Shown here: positions 5,852 through 54,376 of the stretch, piece by piece
Numbering within the stretch: position 1 is the stretch's first letter
How the letters are laid out: every line of letters begins with the position of its first letter
Assembly: GCF_021129175.1 (NCBI RefSeq)
Contig: NZ_JAJOHV010000028.1
Location: forward strand, 1 to 54,376
DNA length: 54,376 nt
Direction: 5' to 3'
Source of the DNA: Chromobacterium piscinae
GTDB taxonomy: Bacteria; Pseudomonadota; Gammaproteobacteria; Burkholderiales; Chromobacteriaceae
Notes under the pieces: model-generated
Databases searched by the model: none
Told to the model about the DNA's origin: nothing
Seen by the model: only the letters and a program-made list of their open reading frames with translations
Made by a program: the position numbers and the translations under genes

Positions 5852-5927
5852 TGGTGGGTCGTGCGGGATTCGAACCTGCGACCAACGGATTAAAAGTCCG
5901 CTGCTCTACCAGCTGAGCTAACGACCC
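5852..5927 (-). tRNA. tRNA-Lys (anticodon UUU), fifth of array
   Basis: This 76-nt gene includes an encoded CCA. The 7-bp acceptor stem is GGGTCGT/ACGACCC, the anticodon loop CTTTTAA gives UUU, and the T-arm is CAGGTTCGAATCCC-like. It is the promoter-distal member of five tandem tRNA-Lys genes. Confidence 0.97.
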
Positions 5928-5963
5928 ATTGGGGTATTCATATCGGGGAGGGTGCAGGGATGG

Positions 5964-6039
5964 TGGTGGGTCGTGAGTGGCTCGAACACTCGACCTACGG
6001 ATTAAGAGTCCGCTGCTCTACCAACTGAGCTAACGACCC
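5964..6039 (-). tRNA. tRNA-Lys (anticodon CUU), fourth of array
   Basis: It is 76 nt with an encoded CCA. It shares the GGGTCGT/ACGACCC acceptor stem with the UUU copies, but the anticodon loop CTCTTAA gives CUU and the T-stem differs (GAGTG with CACTC). It reads AAG codons. Confidence 0.96.
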
Positions 6040-6074
6040 ATCCGGTCTGCACAAAAGACAGAAATGAACTTGAT

Positions 6075-6150
6075 TGGTGGGTCGTGCGGGATTCGAACCT
6101 GCGACCAACGGATTAAAAGTCCGCTGCTCTACCAGCTGAGCTAACGACCC
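6075..6150 (-). tRNA. tRNA-Lys (anticodon UUU), third of array
   Basis: It is 76 nt with an encoded CCA, and its sequence appears identical to the copies at 5852–5927 and 6292–6367. The loop CTTTTAA gives UUU. Confidence 0.97.
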
Positions 6151-6178
6151 GCACAACGTACGGCGGCATGTCTTTGGA

Positions 6179-6254
6179 TGGTGGGTCGTGAGTGGCTCGA
6201 ACACTCGACCTACGGATTAAGAGTCCGCTGCTCTACCAACTGAGCTAACGACCC
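6179..6254 (-). tRNA. tRNA-Lys (anticodon CUU), second of array
   Basis: It is 76 nt with an encoded CCA, and its sequence appears identical to the copy at 5964–6039. The loop CTCTTAA gives CUU. Confidence 0.96.
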
Positions 6255-6291
6255 GTCCGGGACATGCGACTACACTATATCAAGCTTTCTC

Positions 6292-6367
6292 TGGTGGGTC
6301 GTGCGGGATTCGAACCTGCGACCAACGGATTAAAAGTCCGCTGCTCTACCAGCTGAGCTAACGACCC
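6292..6367 (-). tRNA. tRNA-Lys (anticodon UUU), first of array
   Basis: It is 76 nt with an encoded CCA and is the promoter-proximal member of the array, beginning 15 bp downstream of a strong -10 element. Confidence 0.97.
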
Positions 6368-32794: not shown

Positions 32795-33006
32795 GGTTCG
32801 AATCCTGTCTGCGTGCCAAGGTCGGGAAGGACTGCCGCGGTCGCCGTTGCGGCCTGGCACGAGGTTCGAGCCAAGCGAGATGATGAGTGCTGCAAGCCAA
32901 GACAGGTTTAGCGTGGCGAAATCGCCGGCGACGCCTGGGTGAACTGTTGACCCGCCGCCATGCTAACACCATGGCATGTCCTTGCAAAGCGCGGCGGCGG
33001 GCCGAC

Positions 33007-47566: not shown

Positions 47567-47655
47567 CGGCTGTGTGCCCCCTCTCTCCTCCCGGTCGACT
47601 TCCAGCCGATCAACACTCCTTGCCATGCTACGCATCCACGCATCGCCCGTCCCTC

Positions 47656-47832
47656 CCCCTTCCGACCCGCGCCGTTCCGTTGGCGGATGGCTTTAAGCCG
47701 TCGCATGTTTGAGCCCCGCGACGCTAGCGCGGGGCGAGTTCGACGGCGCCTTGCCATCCGTCAACGGAACGGGAATTCGCGGTCGCAGGGGCGGCCTGGG
47801 GTTGCAAGGGGGCTGGCCGCTCAGCCCCCTTG
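47656..47832. repeat. Dispersed structured repeat, copy 1
   Basis: The left flank CCCCTTCCGACCCGCGCC is followed by nested stems: an outer arm of 17 bp (47674–47690 with 47754–47770, 16 of 17 paired), an inner arm GCCGTCG/CGACGGC (47697–47703 with 47741–47747) and a core stem GCCCCGCG/CGCGGGGC (47713–47735). Beyond it lies a G-rich block and a perfect 11-bp stem (47805–47832). Copy 2 is at 54233–54376; flanks, CTTTAAGCCG motif and the G-rich block are alike, while the outer arms differ. Confidence 0.72.
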
Positions 47833-48003
47833 CCTGCGCGGCGGGCAGCCCCGCCATGAAAATCATCCGTCCGCGCAGCGGACACAAAACCACCTCGTAG
47901 CGGCCTCTTCCAATCATGTCCCTGCAGCAACGCCACTCGCCCGGACACAATTCCCCCGTTTCGCGCCATAATCGCGCTTTGCTTTTCACGCGCTCGTCAA
48001 AAA

Positions 48004-48480
48004 ATGAAAACCCTGACCAATCAAGACCTCGCCGACCTGTCCGCCAAGGCCGCCTGTGCGCCGCGCCTGCGCGCCCACCACAACATCCACGCCGAGCTGG
48101 ATGACGTCGTCCAGCGCCTAGCCATCGCCATGGAGCCGGATACCTATGTCCGCCCGCATCGCCACCCCGGCAGCCCGGAATTGCTGATCATGCTGTCCGG
48201 CGCGCTGGACTGGATCGAATTCGATGCCGCCGGCGAAACCGTGGTCGCCCGCTATCGGCTGGGCGATGGCGGCGCGCGCGTGTTCGAGATGCCTGCGAAC
48301 ACCTGGCATTCGGTGGTATCGCTGGAGCCGGGCAGCGTGGTGTTCGAAGTGAAGCGCGGCCCATATCAGCCGCTGCCGAACGCCGATGTGGCCGCCTGGG
48401 CCCCGGCCGAAGGCGACGCCCGCGTCGCCGACATGCTGGCCTTTCTGCGCCGCTGCCAGCCCGGCGACCGCTTCGCGTAA
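48004..48480 (+). CDS. WbuC-family cupin-fold metalloprotein
   Basis: This 158-residue protein matches WbuC: MKTLTNQDLADLSAKAACAP at the start, and cupin motifs with metal ligands in YVRPHRHPGSPELLIMLSG and MPANTWHSVVSLEPGSVVFE. WbuC genes occur in surface polysaccharide loci, although no such locus is nearby here. No clear ribosome-binding site is seen before the ATG. The catalytic role is not established. Confidence 0.85.
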   Translation: MKTLTNQDLADLSAKAACAPRLRAHHNIHAELDDVVQRLAIAMEPDTYVRPHRHPGSPELLIMLSGALDWIEFDAAGETVVARYRLGDGGARVFEMPANTWHSVVSLEPGSVVFEVKRGPYQPLPNADVAAWAPAEGDARVADMLAFLRRCQPGDRFA

Positions 48481-48562
48481 CATCGCTTAACATCTTGCCG
48501 CCGCGGAAGACGGAACCCGCGGCGGCTATTGGCGCACCAAAAAGGCATTGTTTCACCAACCG

Positions 48563-48931
48563 ATGCCGAAGCCGATGTTCCTATTCCGCGCCGTACTCCC
48601 CCTCGTCGTCTCCTTGTCCCTGCTGGCCTGCGCCACCCCGCTGCGCGCCGCCCCCTCGCTCAGCCTGAACAGCCAGCGCCCGCCGCAGCAGGTGGCCGAC
48701 TGCCTGCAGCAAGGCTTGCAAAAGCTGCACATCCCCGATGATTTCGTCGAGCGCCGCGACGAGCGCGACGGCAGCCGCAGCCTGGCGCTGCGCAACCCGG
48801 TCAGCGACGCCTCCGGCACCCGGGTGGACATCCTGCCGCAAGGCGAAGGCAGCCTGCTTGAGGTCAGATTGAACGGCATGCCGCTCAGCCCGGCCTGGAA
48901 GAAGCAGATTCACGGCTGCGCCCGCAAATGA
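48563..48931 (+). CDS. Putative lipoprotein or secreted small protein
   Basis: This 122-residue protein has a signal peptide with a possible lipobox (VVSLSLLAC). The mature part (VADCLQQGLQKLHIPDDFVE, LRNPVSDASGTRVDILPQG, SLLEVRLNG, QIHGCARK) has two further cysteines. I do not recognise the family. Starts at 48563 or 48575 are both possible, with no strong ribosome-binding site. A run of DnaA-like 9-mers begins 2 bp after the stop. Confidence 0.68.
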   Translation: MPKPMFLFRAVLPLVVSLSLLACATPLRAAPSLSLNSQRPPQQVADCLQQGLQKLHIPDDFVERRDERDGSRSLALRNPVSDASGTRVDILPQGEGSLLEVRLNGMPLSPAWKKQIHGCARK

Positions 48932-48932
48932 C

Positions 48933-49104
48933 TGTGGATAAGTCCGACATTCAGTGACTGGCTGTGGATAAACTGGATATCCCGGGATAAGACTGTGGGC
49001 AACTCGCAGAAAAGTGCCTATCCCTTTGCGACAATGTGGGTAAGTGATTTCATCCACAACAGCCTGTGCATAATGTGGACAATTTCAGAACAAGCTGTGA
49101 ATAA
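48933..49104. promoter_or_regulatory. Cluster of eight DnaA-box-like 9-mers
   Basis: Two perfect boxes TGTGGATAA (48933 and 48963), then TGTGGGCAA (48994), TGTGGGTAA (49035), an opposite-strand box (49050–49058), TGTGCATAA (49065), TGTGGACAA (49074) and TGTGAATAA (49096). Start-to-start distances between same-strand boxes are 30, 31, 41, 30, 9 and 22 bp, close to whole helical turns. dnaA, dnaN and an AT-rich unwinding region are not present, so an origin is not claimed. Confidence 0.7.
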
Positions 49105-49206
49105 GCGTCGGCGGCGGAACCTGGCTGGCTTACCGAACCGTGTCGGGGGCGCGCCGCCCGCCCCGCGCGGTTACACTGACGGCATACGCCACGAACGGAC
49201 CCGCCG

Positions 49207-50601
49207 ATGACCACCGCCTCCCATCCCAAGTACGATCAGCACTACGCCGACGGCAAGGCCCGTCGCGGCCAATGCCCGCGCTCCAGCCAGGCCGAACTCC
49301 ACCTGGCGCCGGAACGCGACGTGGTGGCGCTGGTGGAGTCCACCTCGCAGGGCCGGGTGCCCGCGCTGGTGTCGCTGCGCTACGCGCGCATGCATGCGTC
49401 GCCGTTCGCCTTCTTCCGCGGCATGGCGATGATCCAGGCCGCCGACCTGGCCGCCGGCCCCGACAGCGGCCTGCGCCTGCAGATCTGCGGCGACGCCCAC
49501 CTGATGAACTTCGGCTTCTTCGCCTCGCCGGAACGGCAACTGGTGTTCGACATCAACGATTTCGACGAGACCCATCCCGGCCCCTGGGAATGGGACGTCA
49601 AGCGGCTGGCGGTCAGCCTGGTTCTGGCCGGCCGCAGCCGCGGCTTCGACGCCCAGGCCACCCGCGAGATCGTTCAGCGCCTGGCCGCCACCTATCGCCG
49701 CCGCCTCGGCGTTTTCTCGCAGATGAGCCAGCTGGACCTGTGGTATTGCCGCGTCGATTTCGAACAATTGCTGTCCCAGGCCACCGACGAGGGCATGCGC
49801 CAGCAATTGAACAAGGTGGCCGGCAAGGCGCGCAACCAGACCCAGGAGCGGCTGCTGCCCAAGATGACCGACCTGGAGGACGGCGGCTTGCGGCTGCGCG
49901 ACAACCCGCCGGTCATCTTCCACCTCGACGACCGGAACGGTCCGCTGGCCGCCTGCGACGACTGGCTGGGCGGCGACAGCCTGGCCAAGATCCAGCGCAT
50001 GCTGACCAGCTACATCGACACCCTGAAGGAAGACCGCCGCGAGCTGCTGCAACGCTTCCGGCTGGTGGACGCCGCCTTCAAGGTGGTGGGCGTCGGCAGC
50101 GTCGGCACCCGCTGCCTGGCGCTGCTGCTGCAGGACGACTACGACCAGCCGCTGTTCCTGCAGTTGAAGGAGGCGCGGCCGTCGGTGCTGGAGGCCTTCA
50201 CCCAGCCATGCGTGCACGGCAACCAGGGCAAGCGGGTGGTGTTCGGACAACGATTGATGCAGGCCACCAGCGACCTGTTCCTGGGCTGGACCCAGGGCGC
50301 CGACGGCCATCACTTCTACATGCGCCAGCTGCGCGACATGAAGGCCGCTCCGGCGCTGGAAGCGTTCACCAATGCCGAAGAGCTGGCCAGCTACGGCCAG
50401 GCTTGCGGCTGGACGCTGGCGCGCGCCCACGCCAAATCCGGCGGCTGCGCGGCCGAAATCGCCGGCTATCTGGGAGAGTCGGACAAGTTCGACCAGGCGC
50501 TGGCCGACTACGCGCAGGCCTACGCCGACCAGGTGGAGACCGACTACCGGCTGTTCGACGCGGCGGTCCGCGGCGGGCGTTTGCCGGTCTCCGCGGCATA
50601 A
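49207..50601 (+). CDS. DUF2252-family protein
   Basis: This 464-residue cytoplasmic protein has the DUF2252 blocks ASPFAFFRGMAMIQAADL, CGDAHLMNFGFFASPE and VFDINDFDETHPGPWEWDVK, then VVGVGSVGTRCLALLLQ and FYMRQLRDMKAA. The GDAHxxNFG and FDxNDFDE motifs recall the catalytic and metal-binding loops of kinase-like folds, so a phosphotransferase role is possible but unproven. Its promoter region is the DnaA-box cluster upstream. Confidence 0.87.
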   Translation: MTTASHPKYDQHYADGKARRGQCPRSSQAELHLAPERDVVALVESTSQGRVPALVSLRYARMHASPFAFFRGMAMIQAADLAAGPDSGLRLQICGDAHLMNFGFFASPERQLVFDINDFDETHPGPWEWDVKRLAVSLVLAGRSRGFDAQATREIVQRLAATYRRRLGVFSQMSQLDLWYCRVDFEQLLSQATDEGMRQQLNKVAGKARNQTQERLLPKMTDLEDGGLRLRDNPPVIFHLDDRNGPLAACDDWLGGDSLAKIQRMLTSYIDTLKEDRRELLQRFRLVDAAFKVVGVGSVGTRCLALLLQDDYDQPLFLQLKEARPSVLEAFTQPCVHGNQGKRVVFGQRLMQATSDLFLGWTQGADGHHFYMRQLRDMKAAPALEAFTNAEELASYGQACGWTLARAHAKSGGCAAEIAGYLGESDKFDQALADYAQAYADQVETDYRLFDAAVRGGRLPVSAA

Positions 50602-50710
50602 ATGCCGGGTTAGGGAAAATTGCGATGTTGACGGTTGCGTCCTGAACTAGACTGTAACAACAGAAACGCATAATCAGCCGGCGCCGGACCGTCTCCGACG
50701 GGCCCGCGCC

Positions 50711-50738
50711 GCCGCCGCATCTGCGGCGGCTTGTTCCC
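50711..50738 (+). terminator. Hairpin between DUF2252 and the chemoreceptor gene
   Basis: A perfect 8-bp stem (GCCGCCGC/GCGGCGGC, loop ATCT) is followed by TTGTTCC. It could terminate DUF2252 transcripts or form a leader stem just before the chemoreceptor. Confidence 0.5.
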
Positions 50739-50757
50739 TTATACCTGAGTGTCGAAA

Positions 50758-52368
50758 ATGCAGCTGAATACTCGCCTGATCATCATCATCGTCGCCAGCT
50801 TGGTGGCGCTGCTCGGACTGTCCACCGTCGCCTTGCTTTCCACCCGCGCCACCCTGCATCAAGAAAAAAGCGAGCAGATCGTCCACCTGCTGAAAATGGC
50901 GGAGAACAGCCTCACCCATTTCCAGCAGCTGGAGGCCAAGGGCATGCCGCGCGCCGAGGCGCAGAAGCAGGCCATCGCCGCGCTCTCCGCGCTGAAGGTG
51001 GACGACATCTACTTCTTCGGCCGCAACCGCGAGCATCGCGTGCTGTTCCACCCCAGCAAGGACCGCGTCGGCAAGCTGGACATGGGCAGCAAGCTGCCGG
51101 ACGGCCGCACCACGGTGGAAGCCTACGACGATGCGATGAAGGACGCCCACTACGGCGTGCTGGTGATCCAGACCAAGCGCAAGGGCAGCGGCGACCAGGA
51201 ATTCCCCAAGCTGAACGGCGTGTTCCGCTTCGAGCCGTGGGACTGGACGATAGGCACCGGCATCTTCATCGACGACATCGACCAGCTGTTCTGGAGTGAG
51301 GCCCGGACGTTGATGGCCGTCGCGGTGATCTGCGTGGTGGTGCTGGGCGCGCTGGTAGGCTGGATGTCGCGCTCGATACTGCAGTCGCTGGGCGGCGAGC
51401 CGCGCTATGCCGCCGACGTGGTCAAGGCGATCGCCGACGGCGACCTCAGCGTCGATATCCAGGTCAAGGGCGGGCCCAACAGCCTGCTGGGCGCGATGAA
51501 CGACATGCGCGGCAAGCTGCGCCTGATGATAGAGGAGATCGGCCGCGCCACCTCCAGCATCAACCACTCCTGCCACCAGCTGTCCAGCGACATGGACAAG
51601 GTGCATGAGGTATCCGGCATCGCCAGTTCGTCCACCACCTCGGCCGCCGCCGCCATCGAGCAGCTGTCGGTCAGCATAGACCATGTCAGCGCCAGCACCC
51701 GCGACACCGAGACCGGCGCGCGCGACACCGCCCAGCTGGCCGGCGAGGGCAAGATTCTGGCCGGCAACGCCGCCGACGGCATCCGCCAGATCGCCGACCA
51801 GATCCACGGCGCCAGCGACATGGTGGGCCAGCTGGCCGAACGCAGCCGCAGCATCAGCAGCATCGCCGAGACCATCCGCGACATCGCCAACCAGACCAAT
51901 CTGCTGGCGCTGAACGCCGCCATCGAAGCCGCGCGCGCCGGCGAGATGGGCCGCGGCTTCGCGGTGGTGGCCGACGAAGTGCGCAAGCTGGCCGAGCGCA
52001 CCGCCAGCGCCACCGACGAGATCAGCAGCATCGTGCAGGCGGTGATCAACGAAACCGGCAACGTCTCCGGCCGCATGGACGAGATCCGCCCCGCGGTGCA
52101 GGCCGGCGTCGAGCAGGTGCAGCAGGCGGCCGAAACGCTGGAGTCGATCAGCCAGCAGGCCAGCACCGCGCTGGAGCACGTGCACAACGTGGTGGTGGCG
52201 ATGGGCGAGCAGAGCCAGGCCGGCACCAATATCGCCGGCAACGTCGAACAGGTAGCCGGCGTGGTCGAGGAAACCCAGAACTCGGTCAGCCACGCGGTGG
52301 AGGCGGTGCGCGCCATCGACCAGCAGGCCACCAATCTGCACCAGACCGTCAGCCGCTTCCGGCTCTGA
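50758..52368 (+). CDS. Methyl-accepting chemotaxis protein with Cache sensor
   Basis: This 536-residue chemoreceptor has a first membrane segment (residues 7–27), a periplasmic single-Cache-type domain to about 180 ([38 protein letters not shown]), a second membrane segment (about 182–202), HAMP and a signalling domain with the conserved hairpin [20 protein letters not shown] and [18 protein letters not shown]. The Cache type often binds short organic acids or pyruvate. A GTG three codons earlier is an alternative start. Confidence 0.93.
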
Positions 52369-52846
52369 GCGACCTGCGCGGCGTCTCTTTCCCGATAGCG
52401 GTCGTTTGCGGAAAACGGCCGCGGAACGCCCGCAAACAAGGTTGTAAACAGGCGCCACTCATCGCCGCACTTGCCGCCGCCGTTGCGGCTGGCATAATGG
52501 CTACGGGCACACGCTCCATGAAAGCAAGAAAAATACGAGCCTGTTTAAAGTCTTTTTGCGAACAGCGCAGCCCAGCCAGTAGGCCAGATGCAAGGCGGAG
52601 GGCGTGGGCCTTGGTGATTCCAAGGCCCAGCCTGACAACGCCGCAGATGGCCTACTGGCTGGGTTGCCTTTCGGGGCTGCTTTCTGCCGGCGCATGACTT
52701 TGTCAAACGCCCCTTGCAGTGAATAACACTGCGGCGGGCCGTTTTTCGCGCCATGCATCCGGTAGAAAATAGCCGCTGCCACAAAAAGGCTTTGAACAGG
52801 CTCGAAGGACAGACAGGAACCCCAGCACGCTTCAGTGGAGAATCGT
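52369..52846. other. Gap of 478 bp, largely filled by a MITE-like element
   Basis: After about 165 bp with no recognised signal, the gap is taken up by the inverted-repeat element at 52536–52804. The 42 bp between that element and the glutamine-synthetase-like ATG carry only GTGGAG as a ribosome-binding site, so any promoter of that gene probably lies in the element. Confidence 0.6.
52536..52804. mobile_element. MITE-like element with terminal inverted repeats
   Basis: The ends are inverted repeats of about 22 bp with 20 matching positions (left begins CGAGCCTGTTTAAAG, right ends CTTTGAACAGGCTCG), and the match continues weakly inward. Inside is a large hairpin at 52567–52667: an outer arm of 20 bp with one mismatch and an inner 10-bp stem (TGGGCCTTGG/CCAAGGCCCA, loop TGATT), and a smaller GCAGTG/CACTGC stem (52716–52732). 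There is no transposase. No clear target-site duplication was found. Confidence 0.7.
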
Positions 52847-54193
52847 ATGTCTGATGCCCGCATGCCGGCAGGCCTCATCGAATGGCTGCAACACAGCAAG
52901 GCGCGGGACGTCGAGCTCGCCTTTGCCGACGTCCATGGTTTTCCCCGCGGCAAGACCCTGCCCGCCGCCGCCTTCATCAAGGGGCAACCGCTGCGCATCG
53001 CGCGCGCGGTGCCGCTGCAAAGCTGTATCGGCGAATTTCCCGACTACAGCTTCTACGGCGAACACGATCCGGACGTCACGCTGGCGCCGGACTACAACAC
53101 GCTGCGTCCGGTGCCCTGGGCCAAGACCCCGCGCGCGATGGTGATCTGCGACTGCGTCGACCACGACGGCGGCCTGTCGCCGCTGGCGCCGCGCTCGGTG
53201 CTGAAGCAGGTGCTAGCACGCTACGACGCCCATGGCTGGACGCCAGTGGTCGCGCCGGAACTGGAGTTCTACCTGTTCGCCGCCCACGGCGATCCGGCGC
53301 AACCGTTCCAAGCGCCCCAGCTTGCCAGCGGCCGCCGCGAAGCCGGCTTCGACGCCTTCGGCTTCTCCGCGCTGGGCGAGCTGGAAGCCTTCTTCGACGA
53401 GCTGTACCAGGCCTGCGAGACGCTGGGCATCGCCACCGACACCTGCGTGCACGAGATGGGCCCCAGCCAGTTCGAGATCAACCTCAAGCACGGCGACGCG
53501 CTGAAGCTGGCCGACGACACCTTCCTGTTCAAGACCGCGCTGAAGGAGATCGCCCACCGCCACGGCCTCAGCGCCGTGTGCATGGCCAAACCGTTGCCCG
53601 GCCAGCCCGGCAGCTCGATGCACATCCACCAGAGCGTGGTGGACCGCCAGGGCCGCAACGCCTTCAGTCGCGCCGACGGCTCGGGAAGCCCGGAATTCTT
53701 CGGCTTCATCGCCGGCCTGCAGCGCTTCCTGCCCGAGCTGATGCCGCTGTTCTGCCCCAATCCCAACTCCTACCGCCGCTTCGTCAAGGGCATGGCGGCG
53801 CCGGTCAACCTCAGCTGGGGACTGGACAACCGCTCGGTCGGGCTCAGGGTGCCGGTGTCGGGCCCCGAGGCGCGGCGGGTGGAAAACCGCCTGCCCGGCT
53901 GCGACGCCAACCCCTATCTGGCGCTGGCCGCCAGCCTGGGCGCCGGCCTGGCCGGCATCGAGCAGAAGCTGGTCCCGGACGAGGCGGTGCACGGCAATGT
54001 GTTCAAGCAGCAAGCCGCCAGCCTGCCCACCACGCTGGACGCCGCCTGCGCGGCGATGGCCGCCGGCTGCGCCGAGTCCTTGTTCGGCGCGGACTTCAGC
54101 CGAGCCTATCTGGCGGTGAAGGAGGTGGAGCTGAACGACTATCACCGCCAGGTCACCGCCTGGGAACGGCAATATCTGGGGTTTCTGGTCTAA
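52847..54193 (+). CDS. Glutamine-synthetase-like ligase (gamma-glutamylpolyamine synthetase, PuuA type)
   Basis: This 448-residue enzyme has the glutamine synthetase fold: FADVHGFPRGKTLPAAAF at the N-terminus, VAPELEFYLF, MGPSQFEINLKHGDALK, GSSMHIHQSV, NPNSYRRFVKGMAAPVN and ENRLPGCDANPYLALAAS. The shorter length and the absence of the adenylylation loop of GlnA put it with PuuA/GlnT-like enzymes that join glutamate to putrescine or other amines. No puuBCD genes are adjacent. The ATG at 52847 follows GTGGAG; an in-frame ATG four codons earlier is less likely. Confidence 0.9.
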   Translation: MSDARMPAGLIEWLQHSKARDVELAFADVHGFPRGKTLPAAAFIKGQPLRIARAVPLQSCIGEFPDYSFYGEHDPDVTLAPDYNTLRPVPWAKTPRAMVICDCVDHDGGLSPLAPRSVLKQVLARYDAHGWTPVVAPELEFYLFAAHGDPAQPFQAPQLASGRREAGFDAFGFSALGELEAFFDELYQACETLGIATDTCVHEMGPSQFEINLKHGDALKLADDTFLFKTALKEIAHRHGLSAVCMAKPLPGQPGSSMHIHQSVVDRQGRNAFSRADGSGSPEFFGFIAGLQRFLPELMPLFCPNPNSYRRFVKGMAAPVNLSWGLDNRSVGLRVPVSGPEARRVENRLPGCDANPYLALAASLGAGLAGIEQKLVPDEAVHGNVFKQQAASLPTTLDAACAAMAAGCAESLFGADFSRAYLAVKEVELNDYHRQVTAWERQYLGFLV

Positions 54194-54232
54194 AGCGTCC
54201 TAACGTTGATTGTTTGTCGACAGGCACCACAT

Positions 54233-54376
54233 CCCCTTCGGCCCGTGCCGGCAAAACAGCCTTGCTCCAGGGGCCTTTAAGCCGCCGTTTTTTCGATCGG
54301 CGGCGCCTGGAGCAAGGCTGTTTTGCCGGGGTTTCTCGGGCCGCAGGGGTCGCCTAGGGGTGTCGGGGAGCTGGCG
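54233..54376. repeat. Dispersed structured repeat, copy 2 (cut by window end)
   Basis: The left flank CCCCTTCGGCCCGTGCC is followed by a perfect 24-bp inverted repeat (54248–54271 with 54306–54329), an inner stem GCCGCCG/CGGCGGC (54281–54287 with 54298–54304), a T-rich loop, then a G-rich block (GCAGGGGTCGCCTAGGGG) reaching the window edge. The order matches copy 1 at 47656, but the outer arms have unrelated sequences. Confidence 0.72.

Follow-up and report, generated by a model that had tools for sequence, protein, structure and literature searches.

Integron attC sites combine a variable hairpin, a conserved fold and one active strand, and stand next to gene cassettes. A repetitive extragenic palindrome (REP) is a short palindrome of 20-40 bp (PMC3733652); BRE, found via the transcript bprJ, is an intergenic, suspected mobile repeat made of tandem units of 75-91 bp and dispersed in Bordetella, Polaromonas, Acidovorax and Delftia, with no Chromobacteriaceae in its Table 2, and ERIC and NEMIS/Correia are named in the same account beside miniature inverted-repeat transposable elements (MITEs) (PMC3110155); and TM-ECO is a mirror-symmetric, three-strand, intrastrand triplex motif lying between genes and linked with variable loci (PMC4666352). 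Here we describe an element of about 260-290 nt that occurs twice near the end of a Chromobacterium piscinae contig (NZ_JAJOHV010000028.1; all 54,376 nt of it are called the window). Our tentative reading, held with somewhat less than even confidence, is that such copies are non-autonomous mobile intergenic elements, of which one strand acts folded and single-stranded, in the neighbourhood of the REP/RAYT systems (RAYT, REP-associated tyrosine transposase).

The element is nearest in kind to REP/RAYT elements. Like REPs and REPINs with their GTAG- or CGTC-tagged palindromes, it is dispersed, intergenic and hairpin-based, forms inverted pairs and has RAYT genes and GTAG palindromes nearby. It is nevertheless a work-alike rather than a member, because the defining size, tag and free hairpin are absent: it is about ten times longer than a REP, has a variable arm and a pseudoknot, shows by eye no GTAG or CGTC tag, and its own hairpin does not stand as an independent repeat in the genome. 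With BRE, as far as its description extends, it shares being a dispersed and suspected mobile intergenic repeat of beta-proteobacteria, but BRE consists of tandem 75-91 bp units, a separation made by description and not by sequence. It resembles MITEs, ERIC and NEMIS/Correia in being short, non-autonomous and variably present between genomes, while a single copy has by eye no terminal inverted repeat and no recognised target duplication. As in attC, a variable hairpin accompanies a conserved fold and one active strand; unlike attC, the element has a pseudoknot, and most of its close pairs are inverted, not direct. No integrase gene or attC core words turned up, although no search was aimed at them. 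TM-ECO differs in sequence, was searched as DNA and, in the accessible part of its description, has no covarying 5' domain or pseudoknot; its motif, CCCTCNCCC..GGGNGAGGG..GGGNGAGGG, was not seen in the listed element copies, whose mirror symmetry uses other letters.

The two window copies have in common a CCCC/GGGG clamp, TTTAAGCCG, an inner helix and a G-rich block, and differ in their arms (Table 1). A preliminary description, made from the letters alone, had reported such a pair with common flanks, inner stem and G-rich block, and both lie where it placed them. The arm that it gave as 17 bp in copy 1 in fact comprises 20 pairs, 19 of them Watson-Crick and one G.U, while the perfect 24-bp arm of copy 2 is as described. 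The loops do differ, and the cause is an apical hairpin present in copy 1 and absent from copy 2. Predicted as RNA, the folds reach -132.7 kcal/mol (z -7.56) for copy 1 and -105.5 kcal/mol (z -7.41) for copy 2, and none of 200 shuffles of either was as stable. Copy 1 extends past the described repeat into a pseudoknot (47791-47833), a hairpin and a terminal hairpin, and copy 2 ends inside its own pseudoknot, at the contig end.

A short pattern, with one mismatch allowed, yielded nine further copies in the genome. The preliminary description had proposed a covariance-model search; the model R1, built from 11 copies and spanning 154 positions of the 5' domain only, identified 28 copies in the genome at E < 1e-6, and 11 of 13 weaker matches there were antisense echoes of the same places. 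R1 matches were present in 51 of 61 Chromobacteriaceae genomes (E up to 1e-4), with 1 to 35 per genome, in 7 of 10 genera, so that the family is well supported. A search of 369 genomes of the class returned the genome of origin alone among the matches listed, a result of little weight since eight candidates were scored. The full length, a core plus a 3' domain of about 100 nt, was read on the listed copies, some of which lack the 3' end. Elements gave no Rfam match at gathering score, weak below-threshold matches aside, and a literature search that included literal motif strings found no description of the element among the matches listed. The window copies belong to a mobile bacterial repeat family that is apparently unnamed, as first supposed: neither Rfam nor the searched literature seems to name this widespread repeat, whose covarying fold is very clear.

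The 5' domain runs from the CCCC clamp through an outer helix, the variable arm, TTTTAAG, the inner helix, TGTTYGA and the apical hairpin, and returns to GGGG. In the 3' domain a strand such as GCGGCC is followed by loop 1 and by a hairpin that pairs with it through its own loop, forming an H-type pseudoknot; then come a hairpin with a GCGGAA- or GCAGCC-type loop, TCCGC-GNA-GCGGA, and ACAAAA- or TTC-like bases. Covariation was assessed on an alignment, A4, of 116 rows, 111 of them distinct, which was fitted to the R1 structure and thus leans towards pairing. In the distinct rows 94.0% of cells were paired, against 73.7% in shuffles, double changes occurred at 40 of 52 pairs against 32.0, and the covariation score was 0.505 against 0.142, slid versions reaching at most 0.111. 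Three weak or antisense rows, counted in this test, were removed for the arm clusters and the 3'-domain reading, leaving 108. Column identity between copies is 43-44% in the arms, 78-82% in the inner helix and 96% in TTTTAAG. Tabulated across the 108 copies, the arms form 24 clusters (80% single linkage), two of which hold 68 copies; the arms of the two window copies differ in sequence and are complementary within each copy, as had been described, but across the family arms are not unrelated throughout. The fold maintained by one strand is elaborate, with a long stem of free sequence and a pseudoknot, and the element illustrates structure being kept while sequence stays free.

The mismatches indicate which strand is read. 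In 71 arms (those of the 108 copies kept after pattern finding, aligned by Watson-Crick matches alone so that G.U and A.C were treated alike) there were 86 G.U against 14 A.C mismatches, with more G.U in 47 arms and more A.C in 4, counts that are not independent, as the set includes related copies. Fifteen elements from other genera gave 54 G.U and 1 A.C, although the structure used there itself allows G.U. The excess of G.U over A.C argues that the + strand is read single-stranded, as RNA or as DNA; together with the fold, this single-strand use is well supported. It also bears on an explanation without selection, in which quasi-palindrome correction, one arm serving as template for the other in replication, keeps the arms perfect and makes the paired change a copying artefact. 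The 24 perfect pairs of copy 2 and the change of both arms together as a block are what such correction would give. Duplex reading or arm-to-arm copying, however, should give equal G.U and A.C; it is common for arms to be imperfect, with mismatches biased to G.U on one strand, and the outer and inner helices, the apical hairpin and the pseudoknot covary too. We consider this explanation very improbable and disfavour it.

In the pseudoknot, S1 and the segment that it pairs with in the S2 loop change in step, as in GCGGCC/GGCCGC, TCGCC/GGCGA, CCGCC/GGCGG, TGGCC/GGCCA and others. All five pairs form in 72 of 94 elements, and complementarity among 33 distinct types was 4.27, whereas permuting the partners gave 3.54 (0 of 2000 permutations as high); in some copies the finder did not detect S1. 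Loop 1 mirrors the 5' strand of S2: TTTTCTTT stands beside TTTCTTTTG, TTTAGGGG beside GGAGGGGATATTTG, and TAGGGG beside GGGGAGCTG. The mirror score was 5.06 against 3.78 permuted for 45 types (0 of 5000), and 5.04 against 4.05 for 13 collapsed types (3 of 5000), two of which are near-duplicates. Direct, non-mirror similarity to the S2 strand is also high, at 4.62, because the runs are symmetric. Only this mirror symmetry points to a triple helix between loop 1 and stem 2, and it is no proof. The copies provide pseudoknots in a natural series that differ in their possible triplexes. The loops of several elements also harbour a palindrome of 23-29 nt (GAGCGAATC..GATTCGCACGC), with 23 copies in 80 loci (L109:10109, L117:8068, L137:7879 and others).

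Homologues are also spread over many further beta- and gammaproteobacteria. A search pattern that describes the A/T-rich pseudoknot matched 9 of the 369 class genomes, the genome of origin included, with no control match, and at least 119 stretches in species genomes, with hosts among Variovorax, Acidovorax, Polaromonas, Thiobacillus, Dechloromonas, Azonexus, Methylomonas, Vogesella, Silvimonas and Rheinheimera; 80 of the stretches were taken further, and one match lay in a Chitinophagaceae metagenome-assembled genome, perhaps mis-binned. Upstream, the plan recurs in many of the loci read, with different conserved words (GAGGAGCGCAG, TGAGCG..CGAGTT, GAGCACCGCAG) and, once more, arms that vary. 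Fifteen elements of another clade, namely 11 of 15 motif-filter finds and 4 chosen by hand from 68, have 51 predicted pairs, 18 of them with double changes. A window copy had no match in plasmids or phages, and a phage or plasmid origin was rejected; the pseudoknot pattern matched two stretches in viral contigs.

A structured RNA is the main rival, and a possible one. In this explanation the + strand is transcribed, and the pseudoknotted RNA would have a function in the cell or in moving itself, whether by being copied back into DNA or as an enzyme guide, dispersal being secondary. Covariation and the G.U bias are as an RNA would give, as are an H-type pseudoknot with a possible U.A-U triplex and a fold that recurs across clades. 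Other points fit less well: -10-like words 21-24 nt upstream of the core are only weakly in excess, on which ground a promoter at the 5' end of the element was rejected, no T-run terminator was seen at the 3' end of the listed copies, and no Rfam family matched. In addition, G.G-C triples, which purine-rich variants of loop 1 would need, are better known from DNA. Whether the fold is read by an RNA-binding factor or by a single-strand transposase is a directly testable pair of alternatives.

Orthologous sites reveal how copies come and go. At site A, behind a gene of 407 aa, two arm types occur in the same orientation, another subfamily is inverted in L169, and no element was seen in L172, L178 and L180; the inverted element of L169 lies, by eye, between imperfect inverted repeats AGAACCTGCTCACGATCT / AGATCGTGAACAGATTCT, as if MITE-borne. 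Site B carries head-to-head pairs in five loci (L189, L190, L191, L193, L196); L194 has a single terminal hairpin, L192, L197, L199 and L200 have internal remnants, and the remaining loci have other sequence. At site C one subfamily is present in G018, G000 and G027, and a second in G013 and G028, where it is inverted, and in G019, where it is upright. G017 and G012 keep a relic hairpin, the gap is short and empty in G024, G021, G026, G020 and G025, and six more genomes have other neighbours. Individual sites have repeatedly gained, lost, inverted or replaced copies, which shows the element to be mobile, a conclusion that is well supported and bears out an early suggestion.

Arms were compared between orthologues. 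They are identical between window copy 1 and L120, from another species (13 of 13 comparable pairs), and between L020 and L119 (18 of 18). Between L021/L115 and L123/L138, 10 of 18 arm pairs changed as a block within flanks 89-96% alike, and between L140 and L135, 12 of 16 did so within flanks 87-90% alike. Paired arm change is therefore part replacement and part compensated drift. The preliminary description had named selection on structure or an exchangeable stem as sources of such change; the covariation in A4 and in the other clade and the arm mismatches agree with the first, the block differences at orthologous sites with the second. It had also taken copies with conserved arms to signify an ordinary repeat, and such copies occur within lineages and not across them.

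These sites also bear on whether the element is an ordinary palindromic repeat, with passive intergenic roles in transcript ending, mRNA stability or insulation, shuffled by homologous recombination between copies and not self-mobile. Its intergenic position and the block changes and deletions between copies would suit that role, as would convergent flanking genes in 12 of 39 element loci; 55 of 237 pairs away from elements are convergent as well, however, so that the excess is small. Against it, different subfamilies in different orientations have come to occupy one short gap, as at site C, and a pseudoknot and at least seven covarying helices exceed what a terminator needs. We judge this explanation unlikely.

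For the preferred reading, a mobile element with a folded single strand, the mechanism that we favour is RAYT-type movement of single-stranded DNA. The + strand might, more speculatively, be recognised as single-stranded DNA by a RAYT-class HUH (Y1) transposase, much as REPs and REPINs are; the arms would be free in sequence because pairing alone would be read, drifting by compensated changes and being exchanged whole when the site passes to a different lineage. Y1_Tnp matches in the 61 family genomes led to 39 fetched loci, 8 of which contain elements, and tblastn placed a RAYT-like stretch in 6 of the 40 loci L109-L148. The L129 and L109 proteins are REP-associated tyrosine transposases (NF047646, E 2.3e-60 and 1.3e-59) related to the solved TnpA-REP 4er8 (E 6.9e-46). 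The terminal hairpin is specific to the element: TCCGCGNAGCGGA occurs 23 times in the genome, 17 times at model-found copies, 5 times at copies or remnants read by eye and once in a coding stretch, so that a free REP was rejected as its nature, the word being practically confined to copies or remnants (22 of 23). In L398 (G026:C34:334800-340800) the RAYT-element locus is doubled, with two RAYT genes about 91-92% identical to that of the genome of origin and two elements.

Several points weigh against this reading. Five of the eight RAYT-element loci share a flank and represent one orthologous site; with L419 and L417 as others and L408 uncompared, there are therefore three such sites, or four with L408. 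At the shared site the RAYT gene is bounded, by eye, by its own GTAG palindromes, a possible true substrate. Such palindromes, of two kinds (L400:3440-3600 and 2700-2965), sit 3' of elements, oriented alike, and bound a RAYT gene. Among 31 GTAG palindromes in 40 loci, 16 lie downstream of an element at no more than 400 nt and share one orientation; 5 are upstream, 9 farther and 1 beyond 3 kb. Outside the family, a RAYT was present in 1 of 80 loci, within the stretch around each. Y1_Tnp presence does not track the element (matches in 21 of the 51 genomes that carry it and in 4 of the 10 that do not), and element-rich genomes of genus g2 have no Y1_Tnp match, counts limited by the weakness of PF01797 for RAYTs. 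No target duplication and no exact 5' end were recognised by eye at sites A-C, where old insertion ends are blurred, and U.A-U triples within a pseudoknot are more familiar from RNA.

Neighbouring genes were surveyed with a simple gene-calling script around L109-L148, loci hand-picked for strong or clustered matches and hence no random sample, in which orthologous loci were counted more than once (L148 equals L069 in the pair count). Of 24 close pairs there, 17 are head-to-head, as in REPINs, 6 tandem and 1 tail-to-tail. GC content fell below 0.5 in 32 of 114 genes within 900 bp of an element, in 6 of 256 genes at least 3 kb away, and in 11 of 19 genes between copies. PADLOC (E up to 1e-20) was run on 113 of the 114 near and 113 of the 256 far genes. 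The near set, for which the best 25 of 31 families were listed, gave dCTPase three times among the matches listed, and one member each of CBASS cyclase, 2TM effector, RT_UG17, NsnA, NsnB, PDC-S31 and ZorD; the ZorD match is probably a repair helicase, because three near genes carry TRCF domains. The far genes matched RtcR and TniQ models only. In these hand-picked loci, AT-rich genes and defence genes thus gather next to copies. Examined singly, 8 of 20 cargo genes had no Pfam family.

The 3' hairpins of inverted pairs might, less surely, be the outer ends of a unit enclosing cargo such as defence genes. Elements adjoin defence genes at hot spots and may be one route of defence-gene exchange. 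A broader proposal is that they form a new class of mobile element, in which an enzyme acting in trans would read a large folded single strand by its conserved pseudoknot with triple helix and by its interchangeable stem, free in sequence, and inverted pairs would pick up anti-phage defence genes and pass them on at hot spots throughout the beta- and gammaproteobacteria; we regard this as doubtful. Cargo moving as one unit was rejected, as L109, L118 and L125 have elements in common in their dCTPase regions but little of the cargo DNA. Genes with DUF1484 make up 6 of the 113 near genes (L030-type, L109, L127, L130); they were rejected as the element's own protein, since in the genome of origin 2 of 5 lie near elements and 3 do not. 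A DRT-type reverse transcriptase (L127:5839-7299), a SIR2-domain gene (L113:7440-8801) and an anti-phage-type dCTP deaminase (L109:7763-9259) each adjoin elements, and a C4 antisense RNA (RF01695, 72.9 bits) lies near one on the minus strand of L018:738-825.

Table 1. Parts of the two element copies in the window.
Feature	Position	Strand	Basis
Copy 1, 5' domain (covariance-model core)	47655-47800	+	R1 match, 128.3 bits, E 1.0e-21
Copy 1, CCCC/GGGG clamp, 5' side	47656-47659	+	Partner 47788-47791; fold, covariation
Copy 1, variable arm, 5' side	47672-47691	+	Paired with 47753-47772
Copy 1, variable arm, 3' side	47753-47772	+	Paired with 47672-47691
Copy 1, CTTTAAGCCGTCG, conserved joint and inner helix 5' side	47691-47703	+	Pattern search
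Copy 1, CGACGGCG, inner helix 3' side	47741-47748	+	Fold
Copy 1, pseudoknot strand S1a, GCGGCC	47791-47796	+	Partner 47815-47820
Copy 1, stem S2 with S1 partner GGCCGC in its loop	47804-47833	+	47804-47815 with 47822-47833
Copy 1, hairpin GGCGG-GCAGCC-CCGCC	47840-47855	+	Sequence reading; covaries in copies
Copy 1, terminal hairpin GTCCGC-GCA-GCGGAC	47869-47883	+	Sequence reading, genome word count
Copy 2, 5' domain (covariance-model core)	54231-54358	+	R1 match, 113.7 bits, E 8.6e-19
Copy 2, variable arm, 5' side	54248-54271	+	24 perfect pairs
Copy 2, variable arm, 3' side	54306-54329	+	24 perfect pairs
Copy 2, pseudoknot start: S1a TCGCC, S2a GTCGGGGAGCTG	54350-54376	+	Contig ends here; same S1/S2 type complete in other copies

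Elsewhere in the window, both on the minus strand, a COG3860 cis-regulatory RNA (RF02940, 62.6 bits) lies at 32900-32953, and a row of five near-identical tRNA genes occupies 5855-6367.

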